Below, in pieces: positions 5,767 to 58,000 of a DNA stretch of 64,000 nt (position 1 is its first letter; the number at the start of each line of letters is the position of its first letter). Location of the stretch: positions 17,709 through 81,708 of IMG/VR virus record IMGVR_UViG_3300042324_002009, one strand, 5' to 3'. The translations under genes were made by a program, and so were the position numbers. The notes under the pieces were generated by a model. That model was not told the origin of the DNA and searched no databases. It worked only from the letters and a program-made list of their open reading frames with translations. Source of the DNA: a virus.

Positions 5767-5796
5767 TTTTATTGTTTATTTTTAAGTTAATCTATT

Positions 5797-5839
5797 GAAA
5801 AAAGACAACTCTACCCCAGCGGTTTACTGAGGTAGGGTT
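5797..5839 (-). terminator. Rho-independent-type terminator after the S1-domain gene
   Basis: A 13-base stem pairs 5807-5819 with 5827-5839 (AACTCTACC...CAG with CTG.GGTAGGGTT; one mismatch and one G-T pair) around a 7-base loop. The minus strand continues into six T. It lies 2 bases past the S1-domain stop and about 30 bases before the reductase start. Confidence 0.87.
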
Positions 5840-5841
5840 AA

Positions 5842-38278: not shown

Positions 38279-41200
38279 ATGGCAGTACAACTAAAAATCT
38301 CAAGTATTAAATCAATCAATGGTTCAAGTTTAAATACCATCATTGATTTGTCTAATTTCAACTTTAGCACAATTAAATCAGCAATTGATGAATTCTTAAC
38401 CTCAATTAATTATTCTCAAGTAGATGGTGAGATTGCAGTTGATATTCAAGGAATCTCAACCAATTCAATTATTATCAGAAATGGTTTAACTGTATATGGT
38501 ACTCAACAACAAAATGGCAGCTATCCTGAAGTAATTAAAATGTATCCAACTGGTGCAATCACTGCAAAGAACGTTGTAGTTGAAGATGTACTTGAAGGAA
38601 AACGTCTTAGACTTAAGGTGTATGGAGTACTTCCACCAACTGCTGTTCCTGGTGAAATTGTTTATATTACTGCGCAGAATGGAAGAGTTGAAGGTTTTTA
38701 TGGATATTTACAGTCGACTGGTTGGTGTTTACTTAGCTGCGGCGGAACTGGCGAAGGTATTTGTACAGCATCGGTTACTAGGTCAGTTACTCCAAATGTA
38801 ATATCTGGAGATGGAGAATTATTATCACCTGGTCTATTACCAATACCTGCACCAATTGCAACAACCATGTACTTATTATTTGTTAATGGTCATCAAATAA
38901 CTATTGGAGATGGAGATATTAGCGCCAGTGCCTATTTTAGTAAAGATGGTGGAGTTACTGCAACTATATACGCTCAAGTCGATGTGACTGACGAACTTTA
39001 TTGGAACACAACCTCTGCTGGTTATGGATTAGATAGCGGAGACTTTGTTACCTTAATGTATTCAACAGTTGATGCAAATTGTGCTGGAGCAAATGGTACT
39101 ATTTGTATAACTAATATTTTAACTGCAGGTAATACTGAGTCAGTATTTGCTCAAGTTGGAGTTGATGTTATTATGGAGGATCCAGCTTCAGCTAATTGCC
39201 CAATTACTGTGTGCACTTTACCAATTCCAACAATTGAGCCAGAGGGAATTGATTTACCATATGGATATTTTTTAACTAATTCAGTTTTGGCTTTTGATAT
39301 TTCTACTAGCTGCGCAGGTTGTGCACTTATTGGATTTGGATTACCTCAAACAATGACTGAAACTGAATTTGATTCAGTTAGAATTTTTGAAGAAATTAGC
39401 GGAGTTTATACAGACGTTACTATTTTAACTGGACCGTATGCTCCAAATTATTCTACTCGTACAATTTATGCAGAGATTTGCGATTTTGGAGCATTTTATT
39501 TGATACCAGTAGACTCAGCGATACCAACTACAACTACGACAACTGCTGCGCCTACTACCACTACTACTGCTGCTCCAACTACCACTACTACAACTGCGGC
39601 GGCAACCACTACTACAACGGCTGCACCTACTACTAGTACAACAACCGCTGCACCTACTACTAGTACAACAACCGCTGCTCCGACTACTAGTACAACAACG
39701 GTTGAGCCTACGACTACAACAACGGTTGAGCCTACGACTACAACAACTATTGAGCCTACGACTACAACTACCACAACTAGAGTTGACCCTACTACTACAA
39801 CAACTGAGGCTCCGACTACTAGTACAACAACTGTTGCTGAAACTACTAGTACAACAACAGTAGGTGAAAGAACTACCACTACTACAACTAGGTCAGGCGA
39901 AATAACTACAACTACCACAATTAGTTGTGATGGATTTATTGCAACTATTAATGGACCTGGTCCATTTGATATAATACTAGATGGCTTTGATGGAATTGGA
40001 TATACAATTACACAAGATGGCTCAGATATTACATCCGGTACTCTACCGGATTCTTTACCTGGAATCGGATTAGCAATTGAAAAGCTTTTAACAATTACGT
40101 TAGCGAATGGATGCGTATTTACCTATGCATTTGACGAAGGTTTAGGGACTTGGGAGTTATTTACTGGATCAACTACTACAACGACAACTGAGGCTGCAAC
40201 TACTAGTACCACAACTGCCGCTCCTGAGCCAGCTACAACCACAACAACGGTAGCTCCTACTACAACAACAACAACTGAGGCTTCAACTACGAGTACCACA
40301 ACTAAGGCTGAACCTACTACAACTACAACAACACTGACGGAAATATTTAGAAGTATAAATTGCGAAACTTCAACTGTTATAAATATTGACTTTACTACAA
40401 TATTAGCAATAACTCCAGAAATTGGACAAGTTTATTACTTAACATTTGACGACAGTAGCGAGGGTTGTTATACAATATTGTCAAGTGCTACTGGAACTGC
40501 TAATCGTATTGCAAATACAGCAAGCGATCCTATTGCTGACTGTATGAGCTGTCTACCAACTACAACTACAACAACAATAGCCCCTACTACAACTACCACA
40601 ACTGAACCAATATCCGAACCTACGACTACTACAACACTAGAGCCTGGGCTTACCACTACTACAACCGCTGAACCTAGGCCTACAACTAGTACAACAACGG
40701 TTGAACCTACAACTAGTACAACAACGGTTGAACCTACAACTAGTACAACAACGGTTGAACCTACAACTAGTACAACAACGGTTGAGCCTACTACAACTAC
40801 CACAACAACGGTTGAGCCTACTACAACTACCACAACTGAACCAATATCCGAACCTACGACTACTACAACAACGGTTGAACCTACAACTACTACAACAACT
40901 AGAGTTGACCCTACTACAACTACCACAACTGAACCAATATCCGAACCTACGACTACTACAACAACGGTTGAGCCTACTACAACTACCACAACTGAACCAA
41001 TATCCGAACCTACGACTACTACAACAACGGTTGAGCCTACAACTAGTACAACAACTAGAGTTGACCCTACTACAACTACAACAACGGTTGAGCCTACAAC
41101 TAGTACAACAACGGTTGAGCCTACAACTAGTACAACAACAATAGCCCCTACTACAACTAGTACAACAACGGTTGAACCTACAACTAGTACAACAACAATA

Positions 41201-41572
41201 GCCCCTACTACAACTAGTACAACAACCGTTGAGCCTGAATTTGAAACTACTACAACCACAACAGCTGAGCCTACAACTACCACTACAACGGTATTTGATG
41301 GAGAAGTTACAACTACGACTACCGCAAATCCTTGCAACTGTGTATCCGTTGAAAATACAATGGATGGACCAAACGACTTTGACTATACAGACTGTGACGG
41401 TAATTTACAAATGACTCAAATTGCAGCATTTACTACAGTTAGTTTATGTGTACTTAGCTATCCGGATAATGCAATATTTAATGTTACCCCAAGCGGAAGT
41501 TGTGCATTTAATGGAGAAATTTGGAGTTGCGTAATTGGTGAAACTACTACAACTACAACAAGGCGACCATAA
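38279..41572 (+). CDS. Mucin-like Pro-Thr-rich surface protein with Cys-containing modules
   Basis: A 1097-residue protein. Residues 1-415 are a folded, beta-rich N-terminal region that probably attaches it to the virion. Then come three tracts of Thr, Pro, Ala, Val and Glu (about 416-545, 638-685, 760-1015) built from units such as PTTTTTAA, PTTSTTTVE and TEPISEPTTTTT. These resemble mucin domains, whose Thr residues are O-glycosylated in eukaryotes. Between and after the tracts lie small Cys-containing modules (SCDGFIATINGPGPF; FRSINCETSTV; NPCNCVSVENTMDGPNDFDY), probably Ig-like with disulphides. It ends TTTTTTRRP. The gene directly downstream encodes a candidate glycosyltransferase. No Sec signal peptide is apparent, which agrees with a virion rather than a secreted protein. 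Confidence 0.8.
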   Translation: MAVQLKISSIKSINGSSLNTIIDLSNFNFSTIKSAIDEFLTSINYSQVDGEIAVDIQGISTNSIIIRNGLTVYGTQQQNGSYPEVIKMYPTGAITAKNVVVEDVLEGKRLRLKVYGVLPPTAVPGEIVYITAQNGRVEGFYGYLQSTGWCLLSCGGTGEGICTASVTRSVTPNVISGDGELLSPGLLPIPAPIATTMYLLFVNGHQITIGDGDISASAYFSKDGGVTATIYAQVDVTDELYWNTTSAGYGLDSGDFVTLMYSTVDANCAGANGTICITNILTAGNTESVFAQVGVDVIMEDPASANCPITVCTLPIPTIEPEGIDLPYGYFLTNSVLAFDISTSCAGCALIGFGLPQTMTETEFDSVRIFEEISGVYTDVTILTGPYAPNYSTRTIYAEICDFGAFYLIPVDSAIPTTTTTTAAPTTTTTAAPTTTTTTAAATTTTTAAPTTSTTTAAPTTSTTTAAPTTSTTTVEPTTTTTVEPTTTTTIEPTTTTTTTRVDPTTTTTEAPTTSTTTVAETTSTTTVGERTTTTTTRSGEITTTTTISCDGFIATINGPGPFDIILDGFDGIGYTITQDGSDITSGTLPDSLPGIGLAIEKLLTITLANGCVFTYAFDEGLGTWELFTGSTTTTTTEAATTSTTTAAPEPATTTTTVAPTTTTTTEASTTSTTTKAEPTTTTTTLTEIFRSINCETSTVINIDFTTILAITPEIGQVYYLTFDDSSEGCYTILSSATGTANRIANTASDPIADCMSCLPTTTTTTIAPTTTTTTEPISEPTTTTTLEPGLTTTTTAEPRPTTSTTTVEPTTSTTTVEPTTSTTTVEPTTSTTTVEPTTTTTTTVEPTTTTTTEPISEPTTTTTTVEPTTTTTTRVDPTTTTTTEPISEPTTTTTTVEPTTTTTTEPISEPTTTTTTVEPTTSTTTRVDPTTTTTTVEPTTSTTTVEPTTSTTTIAPTTTSTTTVEPTTSTTTIAPTTTSTTTVEPEFETTTTTTAEPTTTTTTVFDGEVTTTTTANPCNCVSVENTMDGPNDFDYTDCDGNLQMTQIAAFTTVSLCVLSYPDNAIFNVTPSGSCAFNGEIWSCVIGETTTTTTRRP
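39523..41319 (+). repeat. Thr-codon-rich tandem repeats (ACA/ACT/ACC) encoding mucin-like tracts
   Basis: Degenerate direct repeats encode PTTTTT-type units in three blocks (about 39523-39915, 40168-40335, 40555-41319). A longer unit encoding TEPISEPTTTTT recurs four times between about 40600 and 41030 with near-identical DNA (for example CCAATATCCGAACCTACGAC), which suggests recent duplication. Confidence 0.9.
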
Positions 41573-41611
41573 CTTACCTAAACTCTATTAAGGTAGTTAG
41601 TATAATTTATT

Positions 41612-42565
41612 ATGTTAACAAAGAAGACTATTTTTATATCAGCACAGCCTGACCATCAATACTTCCATTGGCAAGTTGAGGTGGTAATCCACAATTTTAT
41701 GAAAAATGGAATTAATCCAAATTGGATAGAAATTCTATTTGCCTATAATGACGAGCCTAGCCAAGAAGGTCTTGCCCTAGCTAGAAAATATCCAATGGTT
41801 AGATTCTTTTTCTATAAAAAAAGAATAACTCAAAACTTTGGATACATTCCAATTCTTAGGCCTGATATTCTTGAACAGCATTGGATAAAATATCCAGAAT
41901 TACGTGGTGAAACCGTTTTTTATCATGATTCAGATATTATCTTTAGAGAACTTCCAGATTTCGACTCAATGCATGACAATTTATATTGGTATGTAAGTGA
42001 TACCGTTTCTTATATTGGCGCAAATTATATTAAAAGTAAATCAGAAGACCTATTCATTGACCTTTGTAGTTTAACAAAAATTTCTCCTGAAATAGTAGAA
42101 AAAAATCAAGAAGGGTCAGGCGGTGCTCAATATTTAATGAAAGGCGTTACTTCTGACTTTTGGAAAGAGGTAATTTCAGATTCATTAACTATGTATAAGT
42201 ATATGGCAGATAGAGAAAGTCAAGAACGCAATACATTAACACCAGAAGAGTTAAAAATCTATAATCCTGTACAAAAATGGTGTGCGGATATGTGGGCAGT
42301 TCTTTGGGGTGGCTGGAAAATTGGTGCACAAACAATAATTACACCTGACTTAAATTTTAGTTGGGGAACTTCCTCAATTGAGGATTATGACCGTTGTACA
42401 ATTATGCATAACGCTGGAGTAACAGATGATAGAAAACCTGATCTTTTTTATAAAGCAGATTATCGAGAATCAAGCCCGTTTAATGCGGATCTTTCAAATA
42501 TTAAACCTAATACAGCTTCTGCTAAGTACGTAGATGCAATAATTTACGCAAAAGAAAATAGATAA
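41612..42565 (+). CDS. Putative GT-A-type glycosyltransferase
   Basis: A 317-residue protein. Residues 6-45 give a beta-alpha-beta start (TIFISAQPDHQYFHWQVEVV; WIEILFAYNDE) like nucleotide-sugar enzymes. ETVFYHDSDIIF (100-111; D106 and D108) is a DxD-type metal/nucleotide-sugar motif after a hydrophobic strand. DNLYWYVSDTVSYIGANYI and later WCADMWAVLWGGWKIGAQT and MHNAGVTDD resemble the acceptor-side pattern of hydroxyproline arabinosyltransferase-like enzymes (from memory, tentative). No membrane anchor or signal peptide is seen, so it would act in the cytoplasm during assembly. It lies between the mucin-like gene and three Ser/Thr-rich collagen-like genes, the obvious candidate acceptors. 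A role in cell-surface or DNA glycosylation is also possible. Confidence 0.62.
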   Translation: MLTKKTIFISAQPDHQYFHWQVEVVIHNFMKNGINPNWIEILFAYNDEPSQEGLALARKYPMVRFFFYKKRITQNFGYIPILRPDILEQHWIKYPELRGETVFYHDSDIIFRELPDFDSMHDNLYWYVSDTVSYIGANYIKSKSEDLFIDLCSLTKISPEIVEKNQEGSGGAQYLMKGVTSDFWKEVISDSLTMYKYMADRESQERNTLTPEELKIYNPVQKWCADMWAVLWGGWKIGAQTIITPDLNFSWGTSSIEDYDRCTIMHNAGVTDDRKPDLFYKADYRESSPFNADLSNIKPNTASAKYVDAIIYAKENR

Positions 42566-42587
42566 ACCGGATCTGCCTTATCGCATA

Positions 42588-42597
42588 CAGTATACTG
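42588..42597. promoter_or_regulatory. 10-base palindrome overlapping a late-promoter-like box
   Basis: CAGTATACTG is a perfect palindrome whose last base begins the GATAAATA box. It could be an operator or a chance short palindrome. Confidence 0.3.
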
Positions 42598-42604
42598 ATA
42601 AATA
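42597..42604 (+). promoter_or_regulatory. Late-promoter-like box GATAAATA
   Basis: GATAAATAAC lies 31 bases before the ATG at 42636. An out-of-frame ATG at 42620 opens a 7-codon frame that overlaps the gene start. Confidence 0.58.
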
Positions 42605-42635
42605 ACTGTAGGTAGAAAAATGCAAGTCCAGTATA

Positions 42636-44633
42636 ATGTCTAATAAACTCAAAATAAAACAGGTTGATCTTAGCAACCTAAGTCAAGATAATTCATTAAA
42701 TAAGTTTTTGGTAGTTGATGCTGCTGGTAACGCTTATTATAGTGATTCTCCTGGTGCCGGTTCTGGTGGTTCTGGCTCAAATGGTACGTCGGGTACTTCA
42801 GGTACAAGTGGCCAAGACGGTTCAACTGGTACATCAGGCTCAGATGGAACTTCTGGTACTTCAGGTACAAGTGGCCAAGATGGTTCAACTGGTACTTCTG
42901 GTTCAGATGGAACTTCTGGTACTTCAGGTACAAGCGGTCAAGATGGTTCAACTGGTACTTCTGGTTCAGATGGAACTTCTGGTACTTCAGGTACAAGCGG
43001 TCAAGATGGTTCAACTGGTACTTCTGGTTCAGACGGTACGTCAGGTACTTCAGGTACAAGCGGTCAAGATGGTTCAACTGGTACTTCTGGTTCAGACGGT
43101 ACGTCAGGTACGTCCGGTTCTTCTGGAACAAGTCCATTAGGTTTTTCTTCTGGTACTTCTGGTTCAGATGGAACATCTGGTTCAGACGGTACTTCAGGTA
43201 CAAGCGGAGAAGCAGGTTCTTCAGGTTCAGATGGAACTTCAGGTACAAGTGGCCAAGACGGTTCAACTGGTACTTCCGGCTCAGACGGAACAAGCGGTAC
43301 TTCAGGTATAGATGGAACTAATGGTTCAGACGGAACTTCAGGTACTTCTGGAATTGATGGAACTAATGGTTCAGATGGAACTTCAGGTACTTCTGGAATT
43401 GATGGAACTACTGGTTCAGACGGAACTTCAGGTACAAGCGGACAAGACGGTTCAACTGGTACTTCTGGTTCAGACGGAACTTCTGGAACAAGTGGTGATA
43501 CTTTTACTTATCCAACTGATTTAATTGTTTCATTAACTGGAGGTAGAACTTTTGGACGTTATGTAAGCGGTAGTACTATTCCAGCAACTGGAAAAACTGC
43601 AGCTGAGGTAATTAGTTTAGCAATTGCTGAGCCAATTACTCCAACTGTTGCTCTAACTTCTAGCACATCAATTGCGTTTAATCAAACAGCAATTAGTAAT
43701 GTTCTAAATTTTAGTCATACTATAAATAGTTTAGGAGCAACAATTAGTAGTGTTTCTCTTGAATGGCGAAGAGGCGGTGCAGGTTCATGGGTAGTTTTAT
43801 CAACCTCAACTACTACGCCAAGTACATTTACACATTCACTCACCGATACTAATTATAATACCTCTGCTTTTAATTACAGATATATTGTAACTGATTCAAT
43901 TGGTGCAACTGCGACTGCTACTTTAAATATTACGCCAATCGCATATTCAGCACCATCAATTTCCTTAACAGTTGCTGCAGTTTCAAGTACTTCACCTGAA
44001 ACAAATACAAAAAGAGAAAAAGGAAATATTAATACTAATTTAAGCGGAACTATTACCAGAAATAGTGTAAACAGTGCCTTATCTAGTTATACTTTACAAT
44101 ACTCATTAAATAATAGTTTATGGGTAGATATTGGATCAGAGGTATCAATTGGTCCAGGTACTTCAAGCATTACATTAACTAATCATAATGATATTACGTT
44201 ATTTGCGTCAACTACCATCTATTATAGAGTAAAAGTAATTGATGCATATCAAACATCCTTATCAAGTTTTGCAACTGGTGGAAATACCACAGTTAGTTTT
44301 TTAAATCTAATATTTTACGGACCATCATCCGCAGTTCCAACAACTTCAAGTGATATTAGAGCACTAGGATCCCGAATATTTACGGATGGAAGTAATCCAT
44401 TTAATTTATTAACGGGTACTACTCAAATCAATTTTACAGCAGCAATGCCAGCTACACTAAGTTTAAGCAGTGTAGTTGACTTAGATGCATTAAACGCAGA
44501 TATTACTGGAAATTATGTTTTATCAACATTTAATGTAGTTGACTCCTACGGTACTAACGTATCGTATCGTAACTATACCATGACAAATGCGACTCCTTAT
44601 GGAACATCGCATCGACACCAAATAACTAGATAA
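42636..44633 (+). CDS. Collagen-like fibre protein 1 (665 residues)
   Basis: Residues 1-40 form a short attachment domain ([20 protein letters not shown]). Residues about 41-288 are uninterrupted Gly-X-Y triplets (GTS, GSD, GQD, GST, GID, GTN), with one short break (TSPLGFSSG) near residue 168. They contain no proline and no basic residue in the main tract. Residues 289-665 are a beta-rich region with an Ig/FnIII-like pair ([20 protein letters not shown], then a [16 protein letters not shown] strand) and a final domain ending [10 protein letters not shown]. Collagen-like stalks in phages form trimeric fibres. The next gene starts 6 bases after the stop. A host-contacting fibre is the likely role. 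Confidence 0.85.
42773..43495 (+). repeat. Gly-X-Y coding repeats, Asp-rich type
   Basis: Degenerate 9-base and longer units encode [20 protein letters not shown] 57-base unit encoding exactly this phrase is repeated five times at the start (42800-43100) with only synonymous changes. Confidence 0.93.
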
Positions 44634-44639
44634 TAGAAT

Positions 44640-47600
44640 ATGTCATTAACTCCAGGATTACAATTACCGTATGGTATACAGCCGGTTAACCCAGTACCAG
44701 TAGATGCTTGGTCCGGACCTTATACCGGGGCAAACGAAACTGCTGCGATTGCTGCAGCAAATACAGCGATCCTTTCAGCCATCCGTTTTCAATCAATGGA
44801 AGTCCGCCTTATCTTCGGCGGCAGCTCTCATAAATATTGGTACCGTGATGGAGTATTAGATACAGATTTAGTAGAATTTGCATCAGGTAGTGGAACTGCT
44901 GGCACAGCCGGTAGTGCAGGAACAAGCGGAACCTCTGGAGCCTCAGGCTCAGATGGAACTTCAGGTACTTCAGGTATAGATGGAACTAATGGTTCAGACG
45001 GAACTTCAGGTACTTCTGGAATTGATGGAACTAATGGTTCAGATGGAACTTCAGGTACTTCAGGTATAGATGGAACTAATGGTTCAGACGGAACTTCAGG
45101 TACTTCTGGAATTGATGGAACTACTGGTTCAGACGGAACTTCAGGTACTTCTGGAATTGATGGAACTAATGGTTCAGATGGAACTTCTGGAACATCAGGA
45201 TCAGATGGAACAAGTGGTACTTCAGGTATTGACGGAGTCTCTGGAACAGATGGTAGCTCAGGTACTTCAGGAGAATCCGGCTCAAATGGAACAAGTGGTA
45301 CTTCAGGAGAATCCGGCTCAAATGGAACAAGTGGTACTTCAGGTTCAAATGGAACAAGCGGTACGTCAGGTATAGATGGAACAAATGGTTCAAATGGAAC
45401 TTCCGGTACAAGCGGTATTGATGGAGTCTCTGGAACAGACGGTAGCTCAGGAACTTCTGGCGAATCAGGTTCAAACGGGTCAGATGGTACGTCCGGTACG
45501 TCAGGCTCAAATGGAACTAGTGGTACTTCAGGTTCAAACGGTACTTCTGGAACTTCTGGTTCCAATGGCTCAAACGGGTCAGACGGAACTTCGGGTACGT
45601 CAGGCATTGACGGAGTCTCTGGAACAGATGGTTCTAGTGGAACTTCAGGAGAATCAGGCTCAAATGGAACTTCTGGAACTTCCGGTTCAGATGGTACAAG
45701 CGGAACTTCAGGTTCAAATGGAACTTCTGGTACGTCTGGAATAGACGGAACAAATGGTTCAGACGGAACTTCCGGTACTTCAGGTATCGATGGAGTCTCT
45801 GGAACTGACGGTAGCTCAGGTACTTCAGGAGAATCAGGTTCAAATGGTTCAGATGGAACAAGCGGAACTTCAGGATCAGATGGAACTTCAGGATCAGATG
45901 GAACATCTGGTACGTCCGGTATAGATGGTACAAATGGAGAAGATGGTTCTTCTGGAACAAGTGGTAGTTCAGGCCTAAGCGGCGTAGACGGTTCAAGCGG
46001 AACTTCAGGCTCAACTGGTTCAGATGGTACTTCAGGTTCAAATGGAACAAGTGGAACTTCAGGATCAAATGGAACAAGTGGAACTTCCGGTACTGCTGGA
46101 ACTTCTGGAACAAGCGGAATAGACGGAACAAACGGTTCAGACGGTACTTCAGGAACAAGTGGAATAGACGGAGTCTCTGGAACAGATGGTAGCTCTGGAA
46201 CTTCTGGCGAATCAGGTTCAAATGGAACAAGTGGAACTTCAGGTATAGATGGAACTAATGGGTCAGATGGAACAAGTGGAACTTCAGGTATAGATGGAAC
46301 TAATGGGTCAGATGGAACAAGCGGTACCTCAGGTACTTCAGGAATAGACGGAGTCTCTGGAACAGACGGTAGCTCAGGTACTTCTGGAGAATCAGGTTCA
46401 AATGGGTCAGACGGTACCTCAGGTACTTCAGGTTCAGATGGAACAAGCGGTACTTCAGGCTCAGACGGAACAAGTGGAACTTCGGGTATAGACGGAACTA
46501 ATGGTTCAGATGGTACTTCTGGTACTTCTGGTATCGATGGAGTCTCTGGGACAGATGGTAGCTCAGGTACTTCAGGAGAATCAGGTTCAAATGGTTCAGA
46601 CGGTACATCAGGTACTTCAGGTATAGATGGAACTAATGGGTCAGACGGTACTTCAGGTACTTCAGGCATAGATGGAACTAATGGTTCAGATGGAACAAGT
46701 GGTACTAGTGGAACTTCAGGTATTGATGGAGTCTCAGGAACAGATGGTTCAAGCGGAACTTCTGGCGAATCAGGTTCAAATGGTTCAGATGGAACTTCTG
46801 GTACTTCAGGATCAGATGGTACATCAGGTTCAGATGGTACTTCAGGTACTTCAGGAATAGATGGAACTAATGGTTCAGATGGTACTTCGGGTACTTCTGG
46901 TATCGATGGAGTCTCTGGGACAGATGGTAGCTCAGGTACTTCTGGAGAATCAGGTTCAAATGGTTCAGATGGAACTTCTGGTACAAGTGGAATAGACGGA
47001 ACAAACGGTTCAGATGGTACAAGTGGAACTTCAGGTTCAGATGGAACAAGCGGTACATCTGGCTCAAACGGATCAGACGGTACTTCTGGAACTAGCGGTA
47101 TTGATGGAGTCTCTGGAACAGATGGTTCTAGTGGAACTTCCGGTTCAGAAGGCACAAGCGGAACTTCCGGTTCAGATGGTACTTCTGGAACTAGTGGTAT
47201 AGATGGAACAAATGGATCAGATGGTACAAGCGGTACTTCAGGCTCAGATGGAACTAGTGGTTCAGATGGAACTTCTGGTACATCAGGAATAGATGGTACT
47301 TCAGGCTCAGATGGTTCTTCTGGAACAAGTGGTAGCTCTGGTTTAAGTGGCGTAGATGGTTCTTCTGGAACATCCGGTTCTATTGGAACTTCTGGAACAA
47401 GCGGTACATCAGGTACATCAGGGTCAGATGGTACTTCTGGTTCAAATGGTACTTCTGGAACAAGCGGGTCAGACGGTACTTCTGGAACAAGCGGGTCAGA
47501 TGGTACTTCAGGAACAAGCGGGTCAGATGGTACTTCCGGTACTTCTGGATTAGACGGAACAAATGGTTCAGACGGTACTTCCGGTACAAGCGGAACTTCA

Positions 47601-50600
47601 GGTATAGACGGAGTCTCAGGAACAGATGGTAGCTCAGGAACTTCTGGCGAATCAGGTTCAAATGGAACAAGTGGAACTTCAGGTTCAAACGGATCAGATG
47701 GAACAAGCGGTACCTCAGGCTCAGATGGAACTTCAGGTACTTCAGGTATAGATGGAACTAATGGTTCAGATGGTACTTCAGGTACAAGCGGTATTGATGG
47801 AGTCTCTGGAACAGATGGTTCTAGTGGAACTTCTGGCGAATCAGGTTCTAATGGAACAAGCGGTACGTCAGGTTCAAACGGGTCAGATGGAACTTCAGGA
47901 ACTTCCGGTTCAGACGGTACTTCTGGTACATCAGGTTCAGATGGTACAAGTGGTACATCAGGTTCAGATGGTACTTCAGGAACTTCAGGTTCAGATGGTA
48001 CGTCAGGAACAAGTGGAACTTCTGGTTCAGATGGTACTTCTGGTACTTCAGGATCAGACGGTACAAGTGGAACTTCTGGAATTGATGGAACAAATGGTTC
48101 AGACGGTACTTCAGGTACAAGCGGAACTTCAGGTATCGATGGAGTCTCTGGAACTGACGGTAGCTCAGGAACTTCTGGAGAATCAGGTTCAAATGGAACC
48201 TCTGGTACTTCAGGCATAGATGGAACTAATGGTTCAGATGGTACAAGTGGAACTTCAGGTTCAGATGGAACAAGCGGTACTTCAGGTTCAAACGGATCAG
48301 ATGGAACTTCTGGAACTTCTGGTATTGATGGAGTCTCTGGAACAGATGGTTCTAGTGGAACTTCTGGTTCAGAAGGTACAAGCGGTACTTCTGGTATTGA
48401 TGGAACAAACGGATCAGATGGAACAAGCGGCACGTCAGGAATAGATGGAACAAATGGTTCAGATGGTACGTCAGGTACTTCAGGCTCAGATGGTACTTCT
48501 GGAACAGATGGTATAAATGGAACAGATGGTTCTAGTGGAACCTCTGGTAGTTCAGGTCTAAGCGGAGTAGACGGTACTTCTGGTACTTCAGGTTCAGACG
48601 GTACTTCTGGTACTTCAGGTTCAACTGGTACTTCTGGTACTTCAGGTTCAGACGGTACTTCTGGTACTTCAGGTTCAGACGGTACTTCTGGTACTTCAGG
48701 TTCAGACGGTACTTCCGGTACTTCAGGTTCAGACGGAACTTCAGGAACTTCGGGAATAGACGGAACAAGCGGTTCAGATGGAACAAGCGGTACCTCAGGT
48801 ACTTCAGGAATAGACGGAGTCTCTGGAACAGATGGTAGCTCAGGAACTTCAGGAGAATCAGGTTCAAATGGTACTTCAGGTACAAGTGGAACCTCTGGTA
48901 CTTCAGGTTCAGATGGAACAAGCGGTACTTCAGGCACAAGCGGTTCAGACGGTACTTCTGGAACAAGCGGCACCTCTGGTTCAGACGGAACCTCTGGTAC
49001 TTCTGGTTCAGACGGAACCTCTGGTACTTCTGGTTCAACTGGTACTTCAGGTACTTCAGGCTCAACTGGTTCAGATGGAACTTCAGGCACAAGCGGAACT
49101 TCAGGGTCAGACGGAACCTCTGGTACTTCCGGTACTTCCGGTATTGATGGAGTCTCTGGAACAGATGGTAGCTCTGGAACTTCTGGCGAATCAGGTTCAA
49201 ATGGTACTTCTGGAACAAGTGGAACTTCAGGTTCAAACGGTTCAGACGGAACCTCAGGTACTTCAGGTATTGATGGAACAAATGGATCCGATGGAACTTC
49301 CGGTTCAGATGGAACCTCTGGTACTTCCGGTGCAAATGGTATTTCAACTAGTGTATTCTATTATGAAGCTAAAGATAATGCACAATCAGGTAATCCTGGA
49401 GATGGTCATATTCTTTGGAATAATGCAACACAAATTAGTGCAACCCAAATAAACATAAATCATTTAACGGATGCTCCAATAACTGATATTGATATATTTT
49501 TAGCTCTATTACAAGTAGGTCAACAATTAACAATTCAAGATCGAAACAATAGTGCAAATTATCAAGTATGGGTTATTAATGGAGCAACTACCTTAATTAC
49601 TGGAGCCTCCAATTACTGGACTGTTCCAGTTGCACTAGTTAGTTCTGGTGGTACTCCACAGTTTGCAAATAATCATGAAATTTTCTTAGCCATAATTGCT
49701 GCAACTGGTTCTAGTGGCACAAGCGGTACTTCAGGCTCAACTGGTACTTCAGGAACTTCAGGTTCAACTGGTACTTCCGGTACTTCAGGCTCAACTGGGT
49801 CAAATGGAACTAGCGGAACATCAGGTACTTCAGGCTCAGACGGAACAAGCGGTACTTCAGGTACTTCCGGTATTGATGGAGTCTCAGGAACAGATGGTTC
49901 TTCAGGTACAAGCGGAACAACTGGTACTTCCGGTACTTCAGGTTCAGACGGAACCTCTGGTACTTCAGGTTCAAATGGTTCAGTTGGAACTTCCGGTACA
50001 AGCGGAACAACTGGTACTTCCGGTACTTCAGGTTCAGACGGAACAAGCGGTACTTCTGGTTCAACCGGCACAAGCGGAACCTCTGGTACTTCTGGAACAA
50101 GCGGAACTTCTGGTTCAACTGGGTCAGATGGAACATCAGGCACAAGCGGAACTTCTGGAATAGACGGCGTCTCTGGAACAGACGGTAGCTCTGGTACATC
50201 AGGCGAATCTGGCTCAAATGGAACTTCTGGAACAAGCGGTACTTCAGGTTCAACTGGAACAAGCGGAACTTCTGGTACTTCTGGTACATCCGGTTCAACT
50301 GGTACTTCGGGTACAAGCGGAACTTCCGGTTCAACTGGTACTTCGGGTACAAGCGGAACTTCCGGTTCAACTGGAACTTCAGGCACAAGCGGAACAAGTG
50401 GAACTTCAGGCACAAGCGGTACTTCAGGTTCTGATGGTACATCAGGAACAAGCGGAACTTCTGGTATTGATGGAGTCTCTGGAACAAACGGTAGCTCAGG
50501 AACTTCGGGAGAATCAGGCTCAAACGGTACTTCTGGAACATCCGGTTCAACTGGAACTTCGGGAACTTCTGGTTCAACTGGAAGTTCAGGAACATCAGGC

Positions 50601-51986
50601 TCAACTGGTACATCTGGTACTTCCGGTTCAACTGGTACATCTGGAACTTCTGGCTCAACTGGTACATCTGGAACTTCTGGCTCAACTGGTACATCTGGTA
50701 CTAGCGGTACTTCCGGTTCAAGCGGTACTTCTGGAACTTCAGGTTCAACTGGAACTTCGGGAACATCAGGTTCAACTGGAACAAGCGGAACTTCTGGTAG
50801 TTCTGGTACATCGGGTTCAACTGGTACTTCAGGTTCAACTGGAACATCAGGAACTTCTGGTTCAAGTGGATCAGACGGTACTTCTGGTACTAGCGGTACG
50901 TCCGGTATTGATGGAGTCTCAGGAACAAATGGTAGCTCAGGTACATCAGGTTCAGCTGGAACAAGCGGAACATCTGGTACTTCTGGTACCTCTGGTTCTT
51001 CAGGAACTTCTGGTTCAAACGGCTCAAGCGGAACTTCTGGTTCAAATGGCTCAAACGGTTCTTCAGGAACTTCAGGTTCTAATGGATCAAGCGGAACTTC
51101 AGGTTCTAATGGATCAAGCGGAACTTCAGGCTCAAATGGTTCTTCTGGAACTTCAGGTTCTAATGGATCAAGCGGAACTTCTGGTACTTCAGGTTCAACT
51201 GGAACAAGCGGAACTTCTGGTTCAGATGGTTCATCTGGAACATCAGGTATTGATGGAGTCTCTGGAACAAACGGCTCAAGCGGAACGTCGGGTTTAACTG
51301 GTACTTCGGGCTCAGACGGTTCAAGCGGTACTTCTGGTGGAACTGGTACTTCAGGCTCAAACGGTTCAAGTGGTACTTCCGGTACATCTGGTTCAAGCGG
51401 AACTTCGGTTTCAGTATCCGGTACTCAATCTCAATATACGGTATTTGGTGCAGGTGGAACCACTGTAGTTGATTCAACCTTTGGTATATTTGAAGATACT
51501 ACACTAGATGCCCTATTAATTGGAACCCAGGCTGTTGCTGAAATGCCAAATGAAGTAGTATACAGCCGCCATCAAAATATAACGACTGGAGTAAAACAGG
51601 CTCATTCAAATATTTTATACTCTGATCCAATTTCAGCCTTTGGCTCTGCTGGCTTAAAAATTGATATTGTAAATAATAAATCATTTGAGTTTAATACAGT
51701 GGATAGAATATATGGTATTCAAATTTATATGATAGGTAGTGCGGGAGGCTCTAATGAGGTTGATTATCGAATGTATAGCGGAGCTGTTAAAAATATTGCT
51801 GGAACTGTTTCAATTGTTGGAAATGGATTTACTGAAATTACGCTTGCTCAAGATTCAGTACTTTGGGTATCTATCCCAACTTTTACAATAAGTGGAGCAA
51901 TTTTACTTATTAATATTGCAAATAATACATCTGACCAAATCGCAATTGCTGCACGAGTTGAAATAATTAGTGATGGATTGATATAA
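44640..51986 (+). CDS. Giant collagen-like fibre protein 2 (2448 residues)
   Basis: Residues 1-84 are a folded N-terminal domain (PYGIQPVNPVPVDAWSGPYT; YWYRDGVLDTDLVEFA), probably a virion-attachment module. Residues 85-1567 are Gly-X-Y triplets, dominated by [15 protein letters not shown] and GES. Residues 1568-1689 are a non-collagen insert (STSVFYYEAKDNAQSGNPGD). Residues 1690-2256 are triplets again, now mainly GTS/GST/GSS. Residues 2257-2448 form a beta-rich C-terminal domain, perhaps the trimerisation or receptor part. The triplet tracts contain no Pro, Lys or Arg but many Asp and some Glu, so the fibre is strongly acidic. A phrase IDGVSGTDGSSGTSG recurs at least ten times as a higher-order block. 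The length is far above typical phage collagen-like fibres. Confidence 0.87.
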   Translation: MSLTPGLQLPYGIQPVNPVPVDAWSGPYTGANETAAIAAANTAILSAIRFQSMEVRLIFGGSSHKYWYRDGVLDTDLVEFASGSGTAGTAGSAGTSGTSGASGSDGTSGTSGIDGTNGSDGTSGTSGIDGTNGSDGTSGTSGIDGTNGSDGTSGTSGIDGTTGSDGTSGTSGIDGTNGSDGTSGTSGSDGTSGTSGIDGVSGTDGSSGTSGESGSNGTSGTSGESGSNGTSGTSGSNGTSGTSGIDGTNGSNGTSGTSGIDGVSGTDGSSGTSGESGSNGSDGTSGTSGSNGTSGTSGSNGTSGTSGSNGSNGSDGTSGTSGIDGVSGTDGSSGTSGESGSNGTSGTSGSDGTSGTSGSNGTSGTSGIDGTNGSDGTSGTSGIDGVSGTDGSSGTSGESGSNGSDGTSGTSGSDGTSGSDGTSGTSGIDGTNGEDGSSGTSGSSGLSGVDGSSGTSGSTGSDGTSGSNGTSGTSGSNGTSGTSGTAGTSGTSGIDGTNGSDGTSGTSGIDGVSGTDGSSGTSGESGSNGTSGTSGIDGTNGSDGTSGTSGIDGTNGSDGTSGTSGTSGIDGVSGTDGSSGTSGESGSNGSDGTSGTSGSDGTSGTSGSDGTSGTSGIDGTNGSDGTSGTSGIDGVSGTDGSSGTSGESGSNGSDGTSGTSGIDGTNGSDGTSGTSGIDGTNGSDGTSGTSGTSGIDGVSGTDGSSGTSGESGSNGSDGTSGTSGSDGTSGSDGTSGTSGIDGTNGSDGTSGTSGIDGVSGTDGSSGTSGESGSNGSDGTSGTSGIDGTNGSDGTSGTSGSDGTSGTSGSNGSDGTSGTSGIDGVSGTDGSSGTSGSEGTSGTSGSDGTSGTSGIDGTNGSDGTSGTSGSDGTSGSDGTSGTSGIDGTSGSDGSSGTSGSSGLSGVDGSSGTSGSIGTSGTSGTSGTSGSDGTSGSNGTSGTSGSDGTSGTSGSDGTSGTSGSDGTSGTSGLDGTNGSDGTSGTSGTSGIDGVSGTDGSSGTSGESGSNGTSGTSGSNGSDGTSGTSGSDGTSGTSGIDGTNGSDGTSGTSGIDGVSGTDGSSGTSGESGSNGTSGTSGSNGSDGTSGTSGSDGTSGTSGSDGTSGTSGSDGTSGTSGSDGTSGTSGTSGSDGTSGTSGSDGTSGTSGIDGTNGSDGTSGTSGTSGIDGVSGTDGSSGTSGESGSNGTSGTSGIDGTNGSDGTSGTSGSDGTSGTSGSNGSDGTSGTSGIDGVSGTDGSSGTSGSEGTSGTSGIDGTNGSDGTSGTSGIDGTNGSDGTSGTSGSDGTSGTDGINGTDGSSGTSGSSGLSGVDGTSGTSGSDGTSGTSGSTGTSGTSGSDGTSGTSGSDGTSGTSGSDGTSGTSGSDGTSGTSGIDGTSGSDGTSGTSGTSGIDGVSGTDGSSGTSGESGSNGTSGTSGTSGTSGSDGTSGTSGTSGSDGTSGTSGTSGSDGTSGTSGSDGTSGTSGSTGTSGTSGSTGSDGTSGTSGTSGSDGTSGTSGTSGIDGVSGTDGSSGTSGESGSNGTSGTSGTSGSNGSDGTSGTSGIDGTNGSDGTSGSDGTSGTSGANGISTSVFYYEAKDNAQSGNPGDGHILWNNATQISATQININHLTDAPITDIDIFLALLQVGQQLTIQDRNNSANYQVWVINGATTLITGASNYWTVPVALVSSGGTPQFANNHEIFLAIIAATGSSGTSGTSGSTGTSGTSGSTGTSGTSGSTGSNGTSGTSGTSGSDGTSGTSGTSGIDGVSGTDGSSGTSGTTGTSGTSGSDGTSGTSGSNGSVGTSGTSGTTGTSGTSGSDGTSGTSGSTGTSGTSGTSGTSGTSGSTGSDGTSGTSGTSGIDGVSGTDGSSGTSGESGSNGTSGTSGTSGSTGTSGTSGTSGTSGSTGTSGTSGTSGSTGTSGTSGTSGSTGTSGTSGTSGTSGTSGTSGSDGTSGTSGTSGIDGVSGTNGSSGTSGESGSNGTSGTSGSTGTSGTSGSTGSSGTSGSTGTSGTSGSTGTSGTSGSTGTSGTSGSTGTSGTSGTSGSSGTSGTSGSTGTSGTSGSTGTSGTSGSSGTSGSTGTSGSTGTSGTSGSSGSDGTSGTSGTSGIDGVSGTNGSSGTSGSAGTSGTSGTSGTSGSSGTSGSNGSSGTSGSNGSNGSSGTSGSNGSSGTSGSNGSSGTSGSNGSSGTSGSNGSSGTSGTSGSTGTSGTSGSDGSSGTSGIDGVSGTNGSSGTSGLTGTSGSDGSSGTSGGTGTSGSNGSSGTSGTSGSSGTSVSVSGTQSQYTVFGAGGTTVVDSTFGIFEDTTLDALLIGTQAVAEMPNEVVYSRHQNITTGVKQAHSNILYSDPISAFGSAGLKIDIVNNKSFEFNTVDRIYGIQIYMIGSAGGSNEVDYRMYSGAVKNIAGTVSIVGNGFTEITLAQDSVLWVSIPTFTISGAILLINIANNTSDQIAIAARVEIISDGLI
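44893..51407 (+). repeat. Gly-X-Y coding repeat array, Asp-rich to Ser/Thr-rich
   Basis: About 6.2 kb of degenerate 9-base-period repeats in two blocks (44893-49340 and 49707-51407). Synonymous Gly, Ser and Thr codons vary, yet the core GGAGTCTCTGGAACAGA within the IDGVSGTDG phrase is nearly invariant, as expected for block duplication. Long stop-free frames on the other strand and frames are by-products. Confidence 0.93.
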
Positions 51987-52001
51987 TACTGGCCTATCTT
52001 A

Positions 52002-52067: not shown

Positions 52068-55000
52068 ATGTCATATAAAATAACTTCGCCAGGTGGTGTT
52101 GAACTTAACGATAGTAGTGCAAATCCAAAGCTAGGATTACTAATTCCAACCATTGACGATATTACCAATGCAAGTGGATCAGCTAAAGAAGGTTCTGTAA
52201 TCTATAATAAATTAGATAATAATATTTATAGGTTTACTGGTGCAGCCTGGGAGTCAGCTGCTGGTAGTTCAGGCACAAGCGGTACATCTGGTTCAAGCGG
52301 AACTGCTGGTACTTCAGGTTCTAGTGCAATTGATGGTATTTCAAATGAGTCGTTTAATTCTTCATTAGTTACTGCATTTACTAATACCACTAATGATAGC
52401 GAAGTTATTACAATTGTAAATCAATTAAGTACTAAAATTGTTATTGGTGGATATTTTACAACTTTTAAAGGTGCTACCCGAAAGAGTTTAGTTAGATTAA
52501 ATATTGACGGTTCTGAAGATATTGGATTTTATTCAAATTTAGGTACAGGTTTTAGTGCTGGAACTTATGTTGAAACAGTTAGTGTTCAAGCGGATGAAAA
52601 ACTTATAATAGGTGGAGACTTTACCACATTTAATACTAATACCCGAAACCGCTTAATCCGATTAAATTCAAATGGTACAGAAGATACTGCATTCTATACA
52701 AACTTAGGTTTGGGATTTAATGGAACAGTTATTCAATCCGCTGTTCAAGCCGATGGAAAGATTTTAGTAGGTGGAGTATTTACCACATTTGATGGAAATA
52801 CCCGAAACCGCTTAATCCGATTAAATTCAGATGGTACAGAAGATACTGCATTCTATACAAACTTAGGCTCAGGTATTACTTCTCAAGTTAATGCAATTAC
52901 AATTCAATCTGATAATTCTATATTAATCGGTACAGCAGCTGGCCTAATTAAATTAAACGCAAATGGAACATTAGACTCAGCATTTAATTCAAACTTAGGT
53001 TCAAATGCAGTTGATATACTTGCAATTGCGTGTCAAGCCGACGGATTAATATTAGTCGGCGGCGGATTTACTACATTTAATGGAACTACTAAAAATGGTC
53101 TAATCCGATTAAATTCAAATGGTACGGAAGATACTGCTTTTTATACTAAAATAGGAACAGGTTTTACTGGAGCATTTACCCCACTTGGATTCACAATAAA
53201 TGTTCAATCAGACGGTCGTATACTTGTAGGTGGAGGTTTTGATTCATTTAATGGAGGTACTCGTCATAAGTTAGTTAGATTATTTGCAGATGGTACAGAA
53301 GATATTAGATTCTATGCCGCATTAGGAAGCGCCGTAGGCCCAGGTTCTCCAAGTGGATCTCAAATTAATACAATTTTACTTAAGAATAATTTAATATTGG
53401 TAGGCGGAGCTTTTACTACATTAAACGGAGTTACTCTAAACAATTTATTTTCTTTATATAATAATTCAAACTTATCATCAGGGACAGTTGGTTCAAGCGG
53501 ATCTAATGGAACTAACGGTTCTTCAGGATCAAGCGGAACCTCTGGAACTTCTGGTGAATCTGGTTCTAATGGAAGCTCTGGAACTTCAGGTTCCAACGGC
53601 TCAAATGGTTCTTCGGGTACTTCAGGTTCCAACGGATCACATGGTAGCTCAGGTACTTCCGGTACTTCCGGATCAAATGGTAGCTCAGGTACTTCAGGTT
53701 CTAACGGATCTAATGGTTCAAGCGGAACTTCAGGTTCTAATGGTTCTTCAGGAACAAGTGGAACTTCAGGTTCTAACGGATCTAATGGATCAAGCGGAAC
53801 TTCAGGTTCAAGTGGTTCTAATGGTAGCTCAGGAACATCAGGTTCAAGTGGTTCTAATGGATCAAGTGGAACTTCCGGCTCAAATGGATCAAGTGGAACT
53901 TCAGGTTCTAATGGATCAAATGGAAGCTCAGGAACTTCTGGTTCTAACGGTTCTTCTGGTACGTCAGGTACATCAGGTTCTAATGGATCTTCTGGAACTT
54001 CAGGTTCTAATGGATCAAATGGAAGCTCTGGAACTTCTGGTTCTAATGGTTCAAGTGGAAGCTCTGGAACTTCTGGTTCTAATGGTTCAAGTGGAACTTC
54101 TGGTAGTTCTGGTTCAACTGGAACAAGCGGAACATCAGGTTCAAACGGTTCTTCAGGTACATCAGGTTCTAACGGTAGCTCAGGAACTTCTGGTTCTAAT
54201 GGATCTAACGGTTCTTCTGGAACATCAGGTACTTCAGGTTCTAATGGCTCTTCTGGTACTTCAGGTACTTCTGGTTCAACCGGCTCAAACGGTAGCTCAG
54301 GAACTTCAGGTTCAAATGGTTCTAATGGAAGCTCAGGAACTTCTGGAACTTCCGGCTCAAATGGTTCAAGCGGTACATCTGGTTCTAATGGAAGCTCTGG
54401 AACATCAGGTTCTAATGGCTCAAACGGTAGCTCAGGAACATCAGGTTCTAATGGCTCAAACGGTAGCTCAGGAACAAGCGGTACATCTGGTTCAAACGGT
54501 TTAAATGGAAGCTCAGGTACATCCGGATCAAATGGTTCTTCAGGAACTTCAGGTTCAAACGGTAGCTCAGGTACTTCAGGTACATCAGGTTCAAATGGTT
54601 CAAGCGGAACAAGCGGTTCAAATGGTAGCTCAGGAACATCTGGGACTAGTGGTTCTAATGGATCTTCTGGAACATCTGGTTCAAACGGTTCTTCCGGAAC
54701 TTCAGGTTCTTCTGGAACATCTGGTTCTAATGGATCAAATGGAAGCTCTGGTACATCAGGCGAATCTGGCTCAAATGGAACTTCTGGAACAAGCGGTACT
54801 TCAGGTTCAACTGGAACAAGCGGAACTTCTGGTACTTCAGGAACTTCAGGTACAAGCGGTTCAAATGGTTCTTCCGGAACTTCCGGTTCTAATGGAAGCT
54901 CTGGTACATCTGGTTCTAATGGCTCAAATGGAAGCTCTGGTACTTCAGGTTCTAATGGATCTTCTGGTACTTCAGGTTCTAATGGATCAAATGGAAGCTC

Positions 55001-58000
55001 TGGAACTTCAGGTTCAAATGGTTCTTCAGGAACTAGTGGTACTTCAGGTTCGAATGGCTCAAATGGTAGCTCAGGAACTTCTGGTTCTAATGGGTCTTCT
55101 GGTACAAGTGGTACTTCTGGAACTTCTGGTTCAAATGGTTCTTCAGGAACTTCAGGTTCTAATGGCAGTTCAGGTACTTCAGGTTCAAACGGTTCTTCCG
55201 GTACTAGCGGTACTTCTGGTTCAAATGGTTCTTCTGGAACAAGCGGTTCAAATGGTTCAAACGGATCATCCGGTACTTCAGGAACTTCAGGTTCAAACGG
55301 ATCAAATGGTAGCTCAGGTACTTCAGGTTCAAACGGTTCTAGTGGAACATCTGGTACTTCTGGGTCAGATGGAACTTCTGGAACTAGTGGTACTTCAGGT
55401 TCAAACGGCTCAAATGGTAGCTCTGGAACAAGCGGAACTTCTGGTACATCAGGTTCAAATGGTAGCTCTGGAACGAGTGGTTCAAATGGATCAAACGGTA
55501 GCTCAGGTACATCAGGTTCAAATGGTAGCTCTGGAACTTCAGGTTCTAACGGGTCAAATGGATCATCTGGAACATCTGGTTCTAATGGATCAAATGGAAG
55601 CTCTGGTACTTCAGGAACAAGCGGTTCAAATGGATCATCTGGTACTTCAGGAACTTCAGGTTCAAATGGAAGCTCTGGAACATCTGGTTCTAATGGTAGT
55701 TCAGGAACATCAGGTACATCAGGTACGTCTGGAACATCAGGTTCAAATGGCTCTTCTGGAACTTCCGGTTCTAATGGCTCAAATGGTTCTTCTGGAACTT
55801 CCGGCACAAGCGGATCAACCGGTTCTTCAGGAACAAGTGGAACATCAGGATCAAATGGATCAAGCGGTACTGCTGGTTCTTCTGGAACAAGCGGATCAAA
55901 CGGTTCTTCCGGTACTTCAGGTTCAAATGGTTCAAGTGGAACTTCCGGTACTTCAGGTTCAAACGGATCACATGGTTCTTCTGGAACTTCAGGTTCAACT
56001 GGTTCTTCTGGAACAAGTGGAACCTCTGGAACTTCAGGTTCAACTGGTTCTTCTGGAACAAGTGGAACCTCTGGTACTTCTGGTTCAACTGGAACTTCAG
56101 GAACATCAGGTTCAAACGGCAGCTCAGGAACTTCTGGAACATCAGGTTCAAACGGCAGCTCAGGAACAAGCGGTTCTTCAGGAACTTCGGGTACTTCAGG
56201 TTCTAATGGTTCTTCTGGAACATCCGGTACTTCCGGTACATCTGGTTCAAACGGATCAAGTGGTACTTCTGGTTCTAATGGATCAAATGGAAGCTCAGGA
56301 ACTAGTGGCACATCCGGTTCAAATGGCTCTAATGGAAGCTCTGGTACTTCAGGTTCTAATGGATCAAATGGTAGCTCTGGTACATCAGGTACTTCTGGAA
56401 CATCCGGCTCAAATGGTTCTAACGGAAGCTCAGGAACTTCTGGTTCAAGTGGTACCTCAGGTACTTCCGGTTCTAACGGCTCTTCTGGTACTTCAGGCTC
56501 AAACGGTTCTTCTGGAACTTCAGGGTCAAATGGATCAAACGGTTCTTCTGGTACAAGTGGAACTTCAGGTTCAAATGGAACAAGCGGAACTAGCGGTTCT
56601 AATGGTTCAAGCGGAACTTCAGGTTCTAATGGATCAAGCGGAACCTCAGGTACTTCAGGAACATCCGGTTCGAATGGTTCAAATGGATCAAGCGGTACTT
56701 CAGGTTCTAATGGATCAAATGGAAGCTCGGGAACTTCTGGTTCTAATGGAAGCTCAGGTACGTCAGGTTCTAATGGTTCAAGTGGAACATCTGGTACTTC
56801 AGGTTCAAACGGCTCAAACGGTAGCTCAGGAACTTCAGGTTCTAATGGTTCAAGTGGAACCTCAGGTACTTCAGGTTCTAACGGAACCTCAGGAACATCA
56901 GGCTCAAATGGATCTAATGGTAGTTCAGGTACATCAGGTTCAAATGGATCTAATGGAAGCTCGGGAACAAGTGGTACATCAGGAACATCCGGTACTTCAG
57001 GTTCTTCTGGAACATCAGGCACTTCCGGTTCAAACGGTTCTTCTGGAACTTCTGGTTCTAATGGATCAAACGGTAGCTCAGGTACTTCAGGTTCTAATGG
57101 CTCTTCTGGTACTTCTGGAACATCAGGTTCAACTGGTACATCAGGAACATCAGGTTCAAGTGGAACTTCTGGAACTCGTGGTACATCAGGTACGTCAGGG
57201 ACAGCCGGTTCTTCTGGAACTTCTGGCACAAGCGGATCTACTGGAACCTCAGGAACAAGTGGAATAAGCGGAGTAGATGGATCTAATGGTACATCAGGAA
57301 CCTCCGGCACCTCAGGTTCGAATGGATCTTCTGGAACAAGCGGAACATCTGGCTCTAATGGTTCTTCAGGATCAAGTGGAACCTCAGGAACATCTGGTTC
57401 AACTGGTACTTCTGGAACAAGCGGCTCAACTGGAACTTCTGGAACGTCAGGTTCTTCTGGAACGTCAGGTTCTTCTGGAACTTCTGGAACAAGTGGTACA
57501 TCAGGTTCAAACGGTTCAAGTGGAACTTCAGGTTCTAACGGCTCAAACGGTAGCTCAGGAACTTCTGGAACAAGAGGTACGTCTGGAACAAGCGGTTCTA
57601 ATGGCTCAAGCGGTACTTCTGGAACTTCAGGCTCAACTGGTACTAGTGGTACTTCAGGTTCAAATGGTTCTTCCGGTTCAAGCGGTACCTCAGGTACTTC
57701 CGGTTCTAATGGCTCTTCTGGTACTTCAGGTTCAAACGGATCAAATGGTTCTTCTGGAACTTCAGGTTCAAATGGATCAAATGGTAGTTCCGGTACATCT
57801 GGTACTTCTGGTTCTAACGGATCAAATGGTACTTCAGGCTCAAATGGTTCAAACGGTTCAAGTGGAACTTCAGGTTCTAATGGATCTTCTGGAACATCTG
57901 GTACCTCTGGTTCTAATGGTTCTTCAGGAACCTCAGGTTCAACTGGCTCAAATGGTTCAAGTGGAACATCAGGTTCAAACGGTAGCTCAGGAACTTCAGG

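Follow-up and report, generated by a model that had tools for sequence, protein, structure and literature searches.

A predicted phage glycosyltransferase linked to poly-threonine tracts of virion proteins

The stretch of DNA analysed here (the window) comprises the final 64,000 bases of the 81,708-base virus record IMGVR_UViG_3300042324_002009 of IMG/VR. It encodes a 317-residue protein (41612..42565, plus strand) of the family phrog_4417, which PHROG lists with unknown function and which is proposed to be a poly-threonine O-glycosyltransferase. Very probably, this glycosyltransferase (GT) is a phage-encoded, nucleotide-sugar-dependent enzyme of the GT-A type that, during infection and inside the host cell, O-glycosylates threonine (Thr) runs of virion proteins. 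The computed basis consists of the predicted fold, invariant catalytic-type residues, adjacency, and perfect co-occurrence with repeated joint gain and loss in one matched family; the chemical activity, the sugar and its donor, the timing before assembly, and the benefit are what we infer from it. Since the enzyme and the Thr tail come and go together in the tested family, the GT probably sugar-coats phage particles.

The matched comparison concerns one family of major tail proteins. A single major tail protein with its tail removed served as the query, relatives were taken from viral contigs, and the best 80 of 119 loci were used. Eight of the 80 had less than 1.5 kb downstream and were excluded; none of the eight has a tail or a GT. 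Among the remaining 72 loci, 15 have both tail and GT, 57 have neither, and none is discordant (Fisher p = 8.7e-16). After dereplication there are 14 loci with both and 51 with neither (Fisher p = 1.6e-14). The GT open frame starts no more than 36 bases past the tail-protein stop in all 15 positive loci. On a tree built without the tails, the tail and GT state is explained most simply by eight changes, and at least four are forced by well-supported branches. For 50 of the 57 tail-less loci, the search was extended to the whole record and gave no GT, while the same query was positive in 8 of 100 other records. Thus, in this family, the Thr tail and the GT travel as a pair and repeatedly change state together.

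Thr tails in these loci are not limited to the tail protein. In all 15 GT-positive loci, a C-terminal Thr tail is also present on an upstream open reading frame (ORF) whose end is some 1.4-1.8 kb from the tail protein. In the one locus checked, a match to phrog_10 (E 8.4e-43) identifies this ORF as the major head protein; in one locus (L324) the upstream tailed frame has just 115 residues. A third Thr tail, on a protein of about 105 residues, is present in 7 of the 15 loci and belongs to phrog_749 in the one examined. Among the 65 GT-negative loci, a C-terminal run of four or more Thr occurs in L328 alone; it is a tail of this third type, and L328 branches beside a GT-positive clade. Phage glycosyltransferases that act on DNA or on host serotype are known (PMC12619734), and the GT could likewise act on another target, such as teichoic acid, phage DNA, or, to exclude superinfection, a polysaccharide of the host surface, and be merely sited in the structural block. 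This is highly improbable, as it leaves unexplained both the pairing of tail and GT without discordance and the Thr runs on differing adjoining acceptors, namely tail, head, and small proteins.

The linkage between the GT gene and proteins with Thr runs is supported far beyond the phage of the window. A profile-led scan of 2.9 million contigs gave at least 271 relatives of the GT, from which the best 80 were taken. The linkage survey comprises 100 distinct phage-side GTs, 59 on the Bacteroidetes side and 41 on the Bacillota side; these phage groups include one contig of a metagenome-assembled genome (L149) and one phage named for Arcanobacterium. An ORF with a run of five Thr adjoins the GT gene in 89 of the 100 (54/59 and 35/41, respectively), and lies within three ORFs of it in 56/59 and 37/41. 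The position immediately upstream of the GT is occupied by such an ORF in 52/59 loci on the Bacteroidetes side, compared with 28/447 at the eleven remaining positions up to six ORFs away (Fisher p = 1.9e-42), and in 35/40 compared with 40/408 on the Bacillota side (7.6e-26); these p-values are overstated because the loci share ancestry. Some of the misses have a tract nearby. L070 has no run of five Thr within three ORFs and carries a weaker TTVKPTTVAP tail beside the GT. L181 was counted as lacking a run, and a 50-residue tract missed by the ORF selection lies 24 bases upstream. L194 was scored as a miss since its GT frame was not selected, and its tract is 1.8 kb upstream. A tblastn search at E<=0.01 found 74 phage records with a GT relative. 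Around the GT of 15 named phages that were read, a poly-Thr tract is directly beside the gene in 13, and the others are L070, with its weaker tail, and L569, with a tail 1.9 kb off.

A further locus counted as having no run of five Thr within three ORFs is L189 (Lentilactobacillus fungorum, 5140-6982), in which the two proteins before the GT have Ser/Ala/Thr tails and no poly-Thr. These tails suggest a drift in acceptor preference.

Three collagen-like (Gly-X-Y) proteins are encoded downstream of the GT on the plus strand. The first has 665 residues (42636..44633; PF01391, E 6.3e-33) and begins 70 bases after the GT gene, the second has 2448 residues (44640..51986), and the third, of at least 3977 residues, is open at the record end (52068..63998). 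Ser or Thr is present in 1818 of 1886 triplets (69/80, 631/684, and 1118/1122), and Pro in none; a second count of 1887 triplets likewise contains no Pro, and also no Lys. The first two proteins are possible, unproven acceptors. Long antisense and alternate-frame ORFs occur within 42670-63018, for example 53360-62953 on the minus strand, with 3197 residues of EPEVP-like repeats; they look like by-products of Gly-X-Y repeat DNA rather than genes.

The sequence-only reading of the window had proposed that the enzyme decorates both the mucin-like protein and the collagen-like fibres. A stricter collagen explanation is that the GT glycosylates the Ser/Thr-rich fibres and thereby stabilises proline-free triple helices, with the Thr-tract protein incidental. 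The GT adjoins a Gly-Thr-Ser (GTS) collagen gene in the window, and in most of the loci on the window's side (L002-L034) the GT is followed by Gly-X-Y proteins. Among L002-L066, however, long Gly-X-Y runs around the GT are confined to that side, and none was flagged in L035-L066. DNA-pattern scans for Thr tracts and for GTS collagen each returned at least 120 stretches, of which 120 were read. For collagen, 28 of the 120 failed the GTS-collagen rule, and 91 of the remaining 92 have no GT within the locus. Of the first 63 collagen loci, 50 were searched as whole records, and a GT is present in five of these and absent from 45; two of the five have Thr tracts beside the GT and two have in-frame tracts elsewhere. 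The GT is commoner in Thr-tract than in GTS-collagen pattern loci (12/91 vs 1/92, p 0.0012), and the matched comparison concerns Thr tails. Collagen as the defining substrate is thus rejected as specific, the strict collagen explanation is very unlikely, and collagen may be an extra acceptor in the window's clade. What stands of the proposal is the link to Thr-rich repeats: the regular occurrence of homologues without repeat-rich fibre genes, which the sequence-only reading had named as a refutation, is seen for collagen but not, in phages, for Thr tracts.

The GT matches phrog_4417 over its whole length (residues 8-312, E 2.7e-64). The same reading had named a putative GT-A enzyme with the motif YHDSDIIF, and the ORFs, the motif (residues 104-111), and the repeat composition of the neighbours are all present as described. 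Its suggested fold check agrees as well. The AlphaFold2 model, built from an alignment of 61 sequences from the window and the fetched loci, has a mean predicted local distance difference test score of 96.6 and a predicted template modelling score of 0.93. Foldseek against the PDB places UGGT first (E 2.3e-7) among the 50 matches listed. These include WbbM, xyloside xylosyltransferase, alpha-1,3-galactosyltransferase, glycogenin, LARGE1, and LgtC, and all are glycosyltransferases, which we take to be of the GT-A type. VIA-align puts glycogenin first (Z 15.0, root-mean-square deviation 3.7, 226 residues aligned), and LgtC and GlyE score Z 14.2 and 13.8. These GT-A enzymes are of the retaining kind. 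A GT-A fold similar to those of glycogenin, LgtC, and UGGT is therefore confidently predicted.

All 61 of the aligned rows have D106 and D108 of the DxD motif, H266, and K281. At the C-terminus, H266xxG269 is invariant as well, and no KPW stands at the spacing expected from the GT8 motif HxxGxxKPW. The 317-residue protein has no Pfam match at E<=1, and searches with Pfam, NCBIfam, and PADLOC and against PDB sequences gave nothing usable for family assignment. It is conceivable that the Thr tails and a GT-like protein share a non-glycosidic role, for example that of an inactive chaperone binding the tails. The invariance of the DxD, His, and Lys positions would be unusual for a pseudo-enzyme, and this is the least probable of the explanations considered.

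In the window, the proposed sugar acceptor is the mucin-like protein of 1097 residues encoded directly upstream (38279..41572, plus strand), a presumed virion protein; the GT gene starts 39 bases past its stop. Its N-terminal part (about residues 1-407) is conserved and precedes Thr-rich blocks. In 30-residue windows, three such blocks are recognised by Thr content on the plus strand, the first at 50% Thr or more (39500..39934), the second at 40154..40357, and the third, of about 267 residues, at 40541..41341. Overall the protein has 30.4% Thr and 6.9% Pro. Five to seven consecutive Thr occur 31 times, most commonly spaced by VEP or AAP. No other frame in the window contains five Thr in a row. 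The Thr codons are mixed (ACT 143, ACA 132, ACC 30, ACG 29), and the tract is therefore no pure nucleotide repeat. A Thr run ending at a stop was not matched anywhere in the window, and this ORF terminates in RRP past its Thr run. The protein has no Pfam family above its cut-off and no PHROG at E<=0.01.

Relatives of the N-terminal part were found in 28 cases, of which 12 have an ORF ending inside the locus, and the GT is downstream in all 12. In 11 of these the GT open frame begins 25-38 bases on; in the twelfth (L032), 999 bases intervene, and the Thr tract is part of an ORF located there. This comparison gives no contrast because no GT-negative locus is among the 12. A separate Foldseek search gave weak ZU5/GAIN-like matches (best E 1.8e-4, TMq 0.24), which carry no weight in the interpretation.

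Several observations weigh against the proposed glycosylation of Thr runs. The Thr pattern itself is often found without the enzyme. After the exclusion of 29 of 120 stretches without an in-frame tract, none of them with a GT, 91 Thr-tract loci remain, and the GT is absent from 79 of them. Whole records were searched for the 50 loci lacking a GT among the first 57 Thr-tract loci, and 3 contain one while 47 do not, many of the records being fragments. Three distinct but closely related phage GTs (L035, L036, and L040) have no tract within three ORFs; their in-frame Thr tracts are about 9 kb off or elsewhere in the record. The fifth GT-holding collagen record (G064) has no in-frame Thr tract in the stretches read. 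Eleven chromosomal homologues from Bacteroidota, which form one clade (L151-L159, L170, L171), have no Thr tract in the locus, and nor does L150; the phrog_4417 family is therefore not restricted to poly-Thr. Finally, none of 20 phrog_4417 members has a significant match in Pfam or NCBIfam. At E<=1, Pfam returns nine weak families for these members, none of them a glycosyltransferase family, so that there is no GT8 (Glyco_transf_8) profile match.

Poly-Thr is accordingly not exclusive to the phrog_4417 enzyme. Where the GT does occur in the Thr-tract loci, the tract ORF abuts it in 11 of 12 cases, and in the other (L290) the locus boundary truncates the GT, with the tract 1.4 kb on. Phage contigs such as L221, L226, L248, L258, and L270 have long Thr tracts, and no phrog_4417 was found in them. 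Among 50 neighbour proteins of GT-less tracts from 23 loci, nearly all drawn from a list of 103, there are one GlcNAc-transferase (PF11397), one GT25 protein, and two 2-oxoglutarate oxygenases. These are possibly alternative modifiers, and are too few to support a claim.

The chromosomal loci have single examples of a C39-peptidase ABC transporter (L157), a LanC-like gene (L153), and a small Cys/Thr peptide (L170). This context resembles peptide modification and fits a peptide-acting family. Several of the chromosomal GT frames continue into a second domain, which is weakly Glyco_transf_7C-like in L153.

If the GT glycosylates Thr runs, it would move sugar from a nucleotide donor onto Thr side chains late in infection. 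The acceptor would be stretches of about five to nine Thr, in many cases with xxP after them, that lie exposed on folded subunits of the virion or on their flexible tails, and transfer would take place before or during assembly. In the phage of the window, the acceptor would be the adjoining mucin-like protein. In relatives, this part would be played by the poly-Thr tails at the C-termini of the major head protein and the major tail protein, or by small proteins with Thr tails whose genes immediately precede that of the GT. The outcome would be a sugar-coated particle, with shielding, solubility, or adhesion as the benefit.

The proteins that bear the tracts differ between phage groups. In Bacillota phages and prophages, the tract is often a short C-terminal tail (for example ...YPTTTTTTTTGA) and is borne by the major tail protein (phrog_88, Phage_TTP_1) as well as by the major head protein (phrog_10, Phage_capsid). 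The head protein of Enterococcus phage 4995_1, which ends in TTTTTTKPTTTTTTTQA, is followed by the GT. The Lactobacillus phages read encode small Thr-tailed proteins ahead of the GT, and in relatives of the window the tract-bearing protein is the large mucin-like one.

Some tails are encoded out of frame. In Staphylococcus phages SA2 and RQ1 and Arcanobacterium phage TPWB06 (L071:9111-9924, L075:9158-9920, L565:4223-4925), the tail protein ends in Thr-Thr-CCC-TAA, and the +1 frame runs straight into a long Thr-rich tail ahead of the GT. This junction is a possible programmed +1 frameshift that would yield a tagged long form of the tail protein. In Enterococcus phages VPE25 and 9183 (L068:7287-8620, L564:3580-4870), a Thr tail lies in the -1 frame past the head-protein stop, and the junction of phage 9183, GCC CCA AAA GGG TAG, is a possible slippery site.

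A broader proposal is that poly-Thr tails are portable glycosylation tags. Tail and dedicated GT would form a two-part module that is gained and lost together and grafted onto unrelated virion proteins (head, tail tube, small immunoglobulin-like, and mucin-like) of Bacteroidota and Bacillota phages. In some of these phages, frameshifting would tag only a fraction of the subunits, in the tail protein by +1 at CCC-TAA and in the head protein by -1 at its end, and bacterial peptide-modification clusters would share the enzyme family. Taken as a whole, this combination is plausible, with the balance tilting slightly in its favour.

Two further genes lie upstream of the mucin-like gene in the window. 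A neck/head-closure-like gene is at 34807-36870, and an amidoligase-like gene (PF12224, E 2.7e-7), which also has a weak pentapeptide-repeat match, is at 36879-38231. In loci of the window's clade that extend so far, an ORF of 449-459 residues is present at the amidoligase-like position.

Glycosylation of Thr runs would provide a testable function for phrog_4417 and for the Thr tails of low complexity that phage head and tail proteins carry. If it is true, the sequence of a phage that infects gut, food, or aquatic bacteria would allow sugar-coated virions to be predicted, with a bearing on antibody recognition, adsorption, and phage purification, and the pair would represent a compact short-tag protein glycosylation system. 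Titles and the starts of abstracts gave no literature on poly-Thr phage tails or phrog_4417, most subscription papers being outside this coverage. The name 'prophage pi2 protein 34' occurs once in PMC8768576.

Several known systems resemble the proposed one in part. GT8 and related GT-A enzymes (glycogenin, LgtC, UGGT, and pneumococcal GlyE) share with the 317-residue GT the overall fold, the DxD, and the C-terminal His. They differ from it in sequence, with 5-14% identity in the listed structural alignments. Mucin-type O-glycosylation has Thr runs with Pro as its acceptors. The window system is similar in acceptor composition, the only level at which the two were compared, whereas the phage GT would act in the bacterial cytoplasm. 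In giant viruses, a virus-encoded transferase glycosylates collagen via hydroxylysine. The window likewise combines a virus-encoded transferase with collagen-like proteins; in contrast, its 1887 Gly-X-Y triplets contain no Lys.

Glycosylation of virion proteins is not general, since ten phages are reported as negative in glycoprotein staining (PMC12894461). In mycobacteriophages, the capsid subunit and the tail tube subunit are both reported to bear C-terminal glycans, which have been called a shield (Freeman et al. 2023, Cell Host Microbe, as related in PMC12619734 and PMC11256854). The glycosyltransferases there are phage-encoded, as is the GT here. Thr tails are present here on both head and tail proteins, where the proposed sugars would be attached. 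The systems differ in host phylum and in the poly-Thr tag beside the GT. No mycobacteriophage is named among the 74 phage records that contain a GT relative, six of which are labelled just 'Bacteriophage'. Virion glycosylation itself is thus known from mycobacteriophages, and a poly-Thr acceptor tag with a dedicated GT would be a new version of it.

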